49,115 nt of DNA. Source: Flavipsychrobacter stenotrophus. Lineage in GTDB: Bacteria > Bacteroidota > Bacteroidia > Chitinophagales > Chitinophagaceae. The notes below the pieces were generated by a model that ran no database searches, was not told the origin of the DNA, and saw only the letters and a list, made by a program, of their open reading frames with translations. Positions 14,098 through 17,209 of this stretch are shown here, piece by piece. Made by a program: the position numbers and the translations under genes. Where the stretch lies: NCBI GenBank assembly GCA_945902755.1, contig CAMDNC010000003.1, positions 1 to 49,115 of the forward strand, given 5' to 3'. Numbering within the stretch: position 1 is the stretch's first letter; the number at the start of each line of letters is the position of its first letter.

Positions 14098-14466
14098 TTA
14101 CTTTTTCCTTCTTACTCTGAGTATAATATCAGAATATTCATTAGCACGCTTTACTAATACTGGTGTATTGGTTTTTTCAGACATCCTGAGTAACTCCAAG
14201 TATTCGGGAGCTGCATTCTTGGGTATTTTGTAAAACCTTGCTGACTCATTGAAGTTAACCTCTATATATGCATCATCACCAGCAGGCGGGTTGATAGCTG
14301 CTACAGTAAGGGCATACTCTACAGGTACTTTACCATTATTGTCAACTTTATTCTTTTGTACCAATGCGCAAGATGGAAATGCAATAGCCAGAAAAAATAA
14401 ACCCAACATGTATGTGGTACAAGTTGAGTTTACAAACAATTTACTAAACGACTTTTTTATGGACAT
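14098..14466 (-). CDS. Standalone protein-glutaminase prodomain-like lipoprotein
   Basis: A 122-residue lipoprotein (YMLGLFFLAIAFPSC, lipobox Cys33). Residues about 50-118 align with the pro-region of the adjacent protein-glutaminase: AYIEVNFNESARFYKI against SAIEVVFNENTEFFTV, followed in both by a helix and TPVLVKR against KPLQISF. It also resembles the pro-region of the Chryseobacterium protein-glutaminase as I recall it (IKVSFMLTAQFYEI). There is no catalytic domain. The start overlaps the enzyme's stop by 10 bases, implying translational coupling. In characterised enzymes the pro-region keeps the mature enzyme inactive, so this gene may encode a trans-acting inhibitor, chaperone or immunity protein. 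The function is inferred. Confidence 0.78.
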   Translation of the reverse strand: MSIKKSFSKLFVNSTCTTYMLGLFFLAIAFPSCALVQKNKVDNNGKVPVEYALTVAAINPPAGDDAYIEVNFNESARFYKIPKNAAPEYLELLRMSEKTNTPVLVKRANEYSDIILRVRRKK

Positions 14467-15578
14467 GTAATTAAGTTCCTGTAATTGTAAAGGGTATTGT
14501 TTGTGGCAGAAAAAGTAGGATCTGTAGAGAATACTAAACCAGATGTACCAGAAGGAGCATAAGAAGCTGTAGGGCGGATGTTATACATCGTAACCTTTGG
14601 TATGAAGGAACCAGAGCATACCGGATTTTCTTGTGCATGTAACCACACAGACAAGAGAACAGGTTGATTAAACATTGCGGGGTCAAATACATAAGCTTTA
14701 GGTCCGGTAGGAGTTTTTACTGTAACTAATGGCGCAACATGATACCACCAGCGAATGCAGCAACCACCCCATTTTTGGCCTTGCACAGACAACTTGTAGG
14801 TTGAGGTAGGAGTGGCGAAACTGAATACTTTTTTAGTTCCATATTTATATCTTTTATTAATAATCCAACACATTTTGTGGGCGCGAGCATAACAACCATC
14901 TATACAGTATTGGAATGGGATACAGTAATCAATAGCATAGGGACCGGGTATAGCACAGCATTGTTTAGCTATGTAATTGAACATGAGTTGAGCTGTAGCA
15001 AAATCTGGTATTAGATTATTTAGTCCTGTGTCTGATAAATTGATTGTCCCTAGCTCTGACGGGTTGTCAATAACTTCGTCGGTAATAGTAGATGCTCTCA
15101 ATGATACAGCTGTCTCAGCACCTTTGTCTAAAACACGTCCACTTAGTGCTTCGGCCTGCTGACCTGTGGCATATTCGGCTTTTAGCAACGTACCCTTCCA
15201 AGGATTGAAAGATATTTGCAAAGGTTTGCCGTTGCTAAAAGCTTCTTTTACAACAGCTACAGTTGCAGGGTCATTAACTGTAAAGAATTCCGTGTTTTCA
15301 TTAAATACTACCTCAATTGCTGAACTACCTTCAACACCATTCATGTCAGCCACAGTTACAACACTAGTGAGAGTACGTTGAGGTTCGTTTTTACCTACGT
15401 TGTTATTCAATGCGGCACTATCATCGGTAGGAGCATAACAATTTGTTGTAGTAACTTTTGAACTGTTCTCCCCCTTTTTATTGCAGGAACTAAAAGTAAA
15501 AGAATAACCCATAAAGGCAACCAAAGTAACAACAGAGGCCAGTTTGGATATACGATTGAACATAAATTTGGGATGCAT
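14457..15578 (-). CDS. Protein-glutaminase (protein-glutamine deamidase), lipoprotein precursor
   Basis: From the ATG at 15578 the product is 373 residues; the track start at 15605 falls within a promoter element. The signal (MFNRISKLASVVTLVAFMGYSFTFSSC) ends in lipobox Cys32. A pro-region covers about 75-136. The catalytic domain matches Chryseobacterium protein-glutaminase: NLIPDFATAQLMFNYI, then DGCYARAHKM with nucleophile Cys229, CCIRWWYHVAPLVTV with His280, and YVFDPAMF with Asp299, ending in NTLYNYRNLITCP. The enzyme (EC 3.5.1.44) deamidates glutamine side chains in proteins to glutamate. Several Cys pairs suggest disulfides outside the cytoplasm. It is the first gene of a three-gene operon. 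Confidence 0.88.
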   Translation of the reverse strand: MHPKFMFNRISKLASVVTLVAFMGYSFTFSSCNKKGENSSKVTTTNCYAPTDDSAALNNNVGKNEPQRTLTSVVTVADMNGVEGSSAIEVVFNENTEFFTVNDPATVAVVKEAFSNGKPLQISFNPWKGTLLKAEYATGQQAEALSGRVLDKGAETAVSLRASTITDEVIDNPSELGTINLSDTGLNNLIPDFATAQLMFNYIAKQCCAIPGPYAIDYCIPFQYCIDGCYARAHKMCWIINKRYKYGTKKVFSFATPTSTYKLSVQGQKWGGCCIRWWYHVAPLVTVKTPTGPKAYVFDPAMFNQPVLLSVWLHAQENPVCSGSFIPKVTMYNIRPTASYAPSGTSGLVFSTDPTFSATNNTLYNYRNLITCP

Positions 15579-15602
15579 AATGTCCTTGTATTTGATGATT
15601 GA

Positions 15603-15610
15603 CAAAACTA
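15603..15610 (-). promoter_or_regulatory. Putative -7 element of the protein-glutaminase operon
   Basis: TAGTTTTG on the minus strand matches TAnnTTTG. It overlaps the track start at 15605 and lies 24 bases upstream of the ATG at 15578, supporting the shorter start. No TTG is at the preferred spacing. Confidence 0.5.
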
Positions 15611-15748
15611 TTTAACTCTAATGTACGCAGCTTTTTTCTATAAATCAACAAATAGTAGATTTTTTATTTTTTCGGGCTATCACCTAGTACTATTCACAAA
15701 AATCATTAACTTTAATTGATCATAGATTTCACATACTCATTTCTGGTT

Positions 15749-17209
15749 ATGAAAAACACTATTACAATAGCTTTATTTTTATTTCTTGGGTTGAGCGCTA
15801 ATGCGCAGTACAAGAAAAAACATATGACTGTTGAAGGTCATAATCGATTTATAAGCGCATTATTACAGCAAAACAATGTAGAAAACAGTAAGGCTAAAGC
15901 AACCGCTGGAGTACCCACACAACGTGTGATAGCGCAAAGTACGAGAGACAATGCATTAGGAACGCTTTCGGACTCAGTGAAACTTAAATATAGCGGTATG
16001 AGAAAGTCAGCATATGACTACAACAACATGTTGTTTGCTTACAATTATACCTACAGCACATCTCCGATGTTTGATTATGCAGGCATTTTTACAGTACCTC
16101 AAGTAAAGTATGATACTTATTTGCATTGGACAATGGATCCGTTCAGTTTGCCTTCATTTGTATTTTATGAGTCTAATATTGCGGCTTATGATACTAACAG
16201 TAACCAAACTAGCTTTCAGGAAATATTCCCCGACACATTAAATGATGATCGTAAATACTTCAACACATTTAATACTAACAACACTATAAACAGTGGATTA
16301 TGGACAAACTTTAATACTGGTATCCCAGATAGTGCTTACAAACAGTTTTTTAGCTACGGAACTACAGGTAAGCTGATAAAAGATAGCGTTTACGAATACC
16401 ACATGGGGACTTGGAAACAAGTAGCAAAAACAACCTACTCCTATAGCGGCACGGGGAATTTACTGCAGATTGACCATTTTGCAAATCTAACCGACACGAC
16501 TTTTTCGTTACCACTCATACAGCAGTTGAAATATGTAAATACCTATGACGCTAGTGGTAGGCTTTTGACAGTGCAAACAAGTTTTTATGATGGTACTGTA
16601 TTAGGAGAATATGTAAGGGACACTTTTAGTTATAGTGGTTCATTGACCTTCCATAACTCTTGGAAACAACACCAATATGACCCAATACATGGCACTTGGT
16701 GGCCACAATACAATATGTCTAAACATATTACAGGCTCAAAACCAGATACGGTGTTTCATAAAGGATGGGATAGTATTGCAAATGCTTGGTCGCCTACATC
16801 CATGCAGATAGTAGGTTATAACACCAATAATGACCCAGATACTATTCTGCAATACCTGTACAATTGGACTTCATATTCGTTAACTCCAGACTATACTACT
16901 GTGTATTATTATGAAACATTTTTGGACACAACTCCTGTATTGAGCAATAATAATCTGCCTACTATTGAAGGATCTAGAATACTGCTATATCCCAACCCAG
17001 CAACAACAGAAATTCACGTAGCACTTGTAGAAAAAACTAATAAACTTAGTGCAACAATTTACAATATGAATGGCCAACTGCTATCGAAGCAAGAATGGTA
17101 TAATACTATTCATGAAACTTTGGACGCTAGCTTCTTACCATCAGGTGTCTATATTGTAGAAATTGCCAGTGACAACAATAAATATACCAAACAGTTTATA
17201 AAGCAATAA
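15749..17209 (+). CDS. T9SS-exported protein with type A sorting domain
   Basis: The signal peptide MKNTITIALFLFLGLSANAQ begins at the internal ATG at 15749, giving 486 residues. The central region is Tyr/Asp/Ser/Thr-rich with repeated strands reminiscent of YD-type repeats (TTYSYSGTGNLLQIDHF, KYVNTYDASGRLLTVQTSF, RDTFSYSGSLTFHNSW). The C-terminal 75 residues (ILLYPNPATTEIHVAL, IYNMNGQLLSKQEW, LPSGVYIVEIASDNNKYTKQFIKQ) are a type A T9SS sorting domain. It is probably surface-exposed or released. It diverges from the protein-glutaminase operon; no other sign connects the two. Confidence 0.88.
   Translation: MKNTITIALFLFLGLSANAQYKKKHMTVEGHNRFISALLQQNNVENSKAKATAGVPTQRVIAQSTRDNALGTLSDSVKLKYSGMRKSAYDYNNMLFAYNYTYSTSPMFDYAGIFTVPQVKYDTYLHWTMDPFSLPSFVFYESNIAAYDTNSNQTSFQEIFPDTLNDDRKYFNTFNTNNTINSGLWTNFNTGIPDSAYKQFFSYGTTGKLIKDSVYEYHMGTWKQVAKTTYSYSGTGNLLQIDHFANLTDTTFSLPLIQQLKYVNTYDASGRLLTVQTSFYDGTVLGEYVRDTFSYSGSLTFHNSWKQHQYDPIHGTWWPQYNMSKHITGSKPDTVFHKGWDSIANAWSPTSMQIVGYNTNNDPDTILQYLYNWTSYSLTPDYTTVYYYETFLDTTPVLSNNNLPTIEGSRILLYPNPATTEIHVALVEKTNKLSATIYNMNGQLLSKQEWYNTIHETLDASFLPSGVYIVEIASDNNKYTKQFIKQ

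Follow-up and report, generated by a model that had tools for sequence, protein, structure and literature searches.

A separately encoded protein-glutaminase pro-domain beside its enzyme: a probable trans-acting inhibitor

Why would a bacterium encode the pro-domain of an enzyme as a separate protein, next to an enzyme that already carries a pro-region of its own? The question is raised by a gene for a 122-residue protein in a stretch of 49,115 nucleotides from Flavipsychrobacter stenotrophus (GenBank assembly GCA_945902755.1, contig CAMDNC010000003.1, positions 1 to 49,115; the whole stretch is called the window below). Its neighbour encodes a protein-glutaminase (PG), an enzyme that converts glutamine to glutamate in other proteins and that its pro-domain normally keeps inactive. 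We report that the small protein carries a PG pro-domain, and we argue that the best explanation, which we hold to be probable, is a PG inhibitor that acts in trans and protects the producing cell.

Sequence and fold of the small protein

The small gene and its parts are:

14098..14466, minus strand: standalone PG pro-domain protein, 122 amino acids, with a putative N-terminal export signal and a lipobox-like FPSC (Cys33), then one pro-domain
14101..14322, minus strand: pro-domain, residues 49-122 of the small protein, with a predicted b-b-b-a-b-b (OB-like) fold (pLDDT 94.7) whose closest PDB matches are the PG proenzyme (proPG)
14236..14244, minus strand: Ser75-Ala76-Arg77, predicted active-site plug of the small protein; in the alignment Ala76 lines up with Ala47 of proPG from Chryseobacterium

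A preliminary description, made from the DNA letters, had read this open reading frame (ORF) correctly (14466..14098, minus strand, 122 amino acids) and had likened its residues 50-118 by eye to a PG pro-region. Profile tests in both directions and the predicted fold confirm that residues 49-122 are a PG pro-domain. A hidden Markov model (HMM) of 11 fused pro-regions, 4 of which come from the small protein's own lineage, matched it with an E-value of 4.4e-7 among 4,358 ORFs. HMMs built without that lineage still matched it, whether they contained all domains (E 4e-9), fused domains only (2e-7) or separate domains only (2e-5). Conversely, four standalone proteins from the same family were made into a profile, which was run against 177,635 PDB sequences and placed proPG at the top (residues 36-91; E 0.0034 and 0.0066, the next unrelated sequence being at 0.73). 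A profile of 41 separate proteins reached proPG with an E-value of 2.4e-7, and a profile-profile comparison, which the preliminary description had proposed as a check, gave an hhalign probability of 97.7%. A PDB search with the single sequence of the small protein gave no match; profiles alone reach proPG.

A Pfam scan of the 122-residue ORF found no catalytic domain, as had been described, and by its sequence the small protein is therefore a pro-domain homologue and not the pro-region of a zymogen. No Pfam, NCBIfam or PHROG family matched it above the library threshold, and its relatives matched no significant Pfam family. The weak Pfam match to Carbam_trans_C (E 0.18) was dismissed as chance. 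Loci L006-L017 were also rejected as family members, their matches being weak (E >0.01); the two that were inspected, L006 and L017, have no PG neighbour.

The pro-domain model, built from separate copies alone, has a pLDDT (predicted local distance difference test) of 94.7. Its four top Foldseek matches are all PG (two chains of 3a56, 3a54 and 8z3i). Against residues 23-93 of 3a56 the model gives a Z-score of 11.7 and a root-mean-square deviation of 1.3 Å over 70 residues, the top of all PDB chains, while the highest-scoring non-PG chain reaches a Z-score of 9.1. OB-fold toxin B subunits, which appear in the structure lists with Z-scores below the PG matches, were set aside as sharing a common fold. 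Because OB-like folds bind many ligands, and because other OB-fold proteins rank after PG in the structure search, the small protein might instead be an OB-fold protein that derives from a pro-domain but serves a different purpose, such as PG localisation or the binding of another partner. We consider this most improbable in view of the strict pairing with PG genes and the conserved plug motif described below.

The plug position

In the 48 separate pro-domains, the plug position (residue 47 of proPG) is occupied by Ala 33 times, by Ser 9 times and by Gln twice. An alignment of the 32 small proteins of the window's family shows Phe72, Ser75 and Arg77 to be invariant; position 76 is Ala in 15 of them and Gln in 17, with no other residue. 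The window protein has Ala76, and those of L149 and L156 are likewise of the Ala type. Ala and Gln have switched about five times on the enzyme tree (3-5 in bootstraps). In the PDB, residue 47 is Ala in 3a56 and Gln in 3a54, whose title names an A47Q1 mutant. In their 2011 abstract, Hashizume et al. reportedly describe a loop of the pro-region that lies over the active site and places Ala47 above the pocket, and the A47Q crystals (3a54, 3a55) are said to show enzyme-substrate and acyl-enzyme states. The alternation of Ala and Gln falls at this crystallographically known active-site position.

Such a pattern could mean that the small protein serves PG as a dedicated substrate, or consumable timer: Gln76 would be deamidated to Glu, binding would weaken and active PG would be released with a delay. 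The Gln-type copies (17/32), the invariant S-x-R around a residue that is Ala or Gln only, the repeated switches and the existence of the A47Q proPG mutant as 3a54 and 3a55 are all consistent with this. However, 15 copies, the window protein among them, have an Ala that is unable to react, and there is no evidence of turnover, so that we regard a timer as very unlikely. We find it doubtful, too, that separately encoded pro-domain inhibitors control PGs in several phyla and that about half of those in the window lineage offer a genuine Gln as a consumable or covalently trapped mimic. If true, the Gln-type mimic would be nature's equivalent of the A47Q mutant made in the laboratory, and PG release would be self-timed.

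As a separate observation, read by eye and with no phylogenetic correction, Glu stands at the corresponding position of the enzyme's own pro-region in about 8 of 16 Gln-type pairs (L004, L005, L130, L131, L153, L158, L159 and L165) and never in Ala-type pairs.

The enzyme gene and its pairing with the small gene

The features of the enzyme gene are:

14457..15605, minus strand: PG precursor, 382 amino acids from TTG, with a lipoprotein-type signal FSSC and the catalytic Cys, His and Asp present
15162..15368, minus strand: fused pro-region of the window PG, which matches poorly to models built without its own lineage
14892..14894, minus strand: predicted catalytic Cys codon (DGCYARAHKM), from conservation
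14739..14741, minus strand: predicted catalytic His codon (WYHVAP), from conservation
14682..14684, minus strand: predicted catalytic Asp codon (FDP), from conservation
14457..14466, minus strand: 10-nucleotide overlap of the PG stop and the small-gene start, retained in most family members

Translation more probably begins at Met10 (15578) than at the TTG. The precursor matches Pfam family PF18626 (Gln_deamidase_2; E 1.7e-25) and PDB 3a54 (E 2.6e-19), and its own pro-region was detected, in agreement with the preliminary description; judged from these matches, it is an intact PG with its own pro-region.

When 394 genomes of the same family were searched with a profile, 12 clearly contained the small protein, each time adjoining PG, and PG is present in 29 of the 35 genomes of the genus. 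All loci combined yielded 32 pairs of PG and small gene, and 32 of the 33 sampled PGs of the window type carry the small gene; L150 and L166 carry it.

The gene overlap suggests coordinated translation, which would also suit a folding chaperone that acts in trans during or after PG export, with inhibition being secondary. PGs without a fused pro-region could need a separate copy to fold, and pro-peptides are well known as chaperones for subtilisins. The window PG retains its own pro-region, however, and the strong conservation of the plug loop would not be needed by a pure chaperone. We therefore consider this explanation unlikely.

A gene for a Por_Secre_tail protein lies divergent to PG in the window (15716-17209, plus strand). 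By eye it looks homologous to its counterpart in L018 (2609-3352, plus strand), which is likewise divergent to PG, and would be a conserved divergent neighbour.

Fused and separate pro-domains across phyla

A scan with a PG catalytic profile yielded 80 loci from many phyla, and iterated HMM searches found 86 pro-domains. Among the separate matches, 46 of 48 adjoin a PG gene and share its strand, the two genes mostly overlapping by 1-10 nucleotides. These loci were gathered around PG genes; pro-domains distant from any PG were sought in the genomes of the same family alone, where all clear matches adjoin PG. Outside the window lineage, the separate genes lie nearly always directly downstream of the PG gene.

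The fused and the separate form are near-exclusive. Of 105 PG genes, 27 have a fused pro-domain only, 42 a separate one only, 4 both and 32 neither, a class that is overcounted because L049 has a separate pro-domain truncated by the contig end and the first PG of L054 precedes a second PG with a pro-domain gene behind it. The four genes with both forms are the window PG and three relatives, so that both forms occur together in this lineage only. On the catalytic tree the pro-domain labels are strongly clustered and the genes with both forms sit inside the fused clade; the separate copy in the window lineage is thus probably a later addition.

The separate protein clusters beside the Chryseobacterium pro-region and not beside that of its partner (57 columns, weak support). 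When scored with the all-domain lineage-free model in all four genomes tested, the separate proteins reach 34, 29, 29 and 26 bits, against 5, 14, 22 and 9 bits for the enzyme pro-regions of the same genomes. Because of this clustering and these higher scores, the separate gene now appears to carry the canonical pro-domain while the fused pro-region has drifted. The fused pro-region has also drifted in L018 and L019, both without a separate gene, and a hand-over from the fused to the separate form is therefore not proven.

Some loci show other arrangements. In the fused clade, pro-domains lie in a separate ORF directly upstream of PG in L083 (3498-3992) and L096 (3234-3995), possibly through a split or a frameshift. 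In Bacteriovorax, two tandem separate pro-domain genes follow one PG gene (L073, 4510-5055; L075, 4525-5078). A short PG-like family of about 220 amino acids from the same bacterial family (L026, L032-L040) had no detected pro-domain.

Pro-domain genes behind toxins

In two Saprospiraceae loci, a toxin gene that includes a delivery domain has the pro-domain gene immediately behind it. In L022 (genome G431; the same match as Saprospiraceae record L044), the PG domain is part of a DUF4280 protein that lacks a pro-region, and a pro-domain protein of two domains comes next; the pair is flanked by DUF4280-M23 peptidase and DUF4280-GH19 genes. In L028 (the same match as Phaeodactylibacter record L100), the PG domain belongs to an eCIS_core protein, again lacking a pro-region, and the protein encoded next is a pro-domain protein of 101 residues. 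Gene order suggests that the pro-domain gene occupies the position of an immunity gene in both. No toxin-delivery domain was found in a Pfam scan of the window PG, so the small gene of the window is not downstream of a delivery-domain toxin.

In Herpetosiphon (L048, L053, L055), PG-domain proteins with a long N-terminus are followed by a different, lipoprotein-like protein of about 186 amino acids, perhaps another type of immunity protein. An Rhs-like protein is joined to a PG domain in L051.

Export and lipidation

The preliminary description called the small protein a lipoprotein. Lipidation is plausible for the window protein, in which a lipobox-like FPSC with Cys33 can be read from the sequence alone, but the term does not extend to the whole family: a lipobox-like Cys is present in 14 of the 32 relatives, and the remainder look like plain secreted proteins. 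By plug type, the Cys occurs in 11 of the 15 relatives with Ala and in 3 of the 17 with Gln. A link between Ala type and lipobox (Fisher p 6e-4, with L149 and L156 misassigned) was rejected, as the tree holds too few independent pairs.

Proposed function

The most likely interpretation is that the small protein is a dedicated, substrate-mimicking inhibitor or antidote that acts in trans and is co-translated with PG. Once translated, it would be exported to the same envelope compartment as the enzyme. There, the S75-A76-R77 loop would insert in the active-site cleft of PG as a substrate mimic and hold PG inactive. The producer cell would in this way be protected from its own PG after the enzyme's own pro-region is cleaved. 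The activity of the B. helcogenes PG proenzyme (pro-PGB) is about 17-fold below that of the mature enzyme, and the cleaved propeptide seems to stay with PG, its removal needing 4 M urea in one study (PMC13139226).

Several observations weigh against an inhibitor. The window PG already has its own pro-region, so that a second, separate copy may be superfluous or have a different task. More than half of the family copies have Gln, a PG substrate residue, at the plug. One PG of the window type lacks the small gene within the genus (G609, L144), and PGs without a separate gene also occur outside the family (L018, L019). Finally, a model of the full window PG (pLDDT 72) did not reproduce a docked pro-domain, although it is too weak to judge docking. 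On balance, the inhibitor or self-protection role first put forward in the preliminary description is supported by the homology, the common fold, the conserved plug, the gene pairing, the near-exclusive fused and separate forms across phyla and the two toxin loci; binding, inhibition, export and protection are inferred.

Comparison with known systems

We found no described PG inhibitor or immunity protein in the literature searched, which mostly did not cover subscription papers, and novelty is provisional to that extent. The small protein would establish a family, so far unannotated, with members in Bacteroidota, Bdellovibrionota, Pseudomonadota and other groups. It would offer a route to an open question, the natural role of PGs and how their producers survive them. 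Toxins with a PG domain would gain a family of immunity proteins, and the food industry, which uses PG, could gain a protein that inhibits it.

The pro-region of Chryseobacterium proteolyticum PG (3a54/3a55/3a56) shares its sequence profile, fold and plug position with the small protein. However, that pro-region is part of the enzyme chain and is removed by proteolysis, whereas the window encodes a separate product with its own predicted export signal. The immunity proteins that accompany DUF4280/PAAR-type and eCIS_core toxins are alike in that a toxin with a PG domain has the pro-domain gene directly behind it (L022/L044, L028/L100); the window PG differs from these toxins in being a proenzyme of lipoprotein type that carries an export signal and no toxin-delivery domain.

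Free-standing copies of pro-domains that inhibit in trans are also known as I29 inhibitors (CTLA-2alpha, crammer, BCPI; PMC4089206) and as a propeptide-like inhibitor of malaria SUB1 (PMC6993865), but these are eukaryotic and act on peptidases rather than on a glutamine deamidase. In function, the nearest analogue is the SpeB-Spi pair of Streptococcus pyogenes (PMC2873492), in which a small propeptide-like protein is likewise encoded by its enzyme and self-protection has been proposed, although SpeB is a cysteine protease of an unrelated family and not a deamidase. The window has a Spi-like arrangement, with the small protein separately encoded and adjoining the enzyme that it would inhibit in trans. 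Propeptide-like inhibitors beside their own enzyme are known for proteases, and the small protein would extend this principle to a protein-deamidating enzyme.
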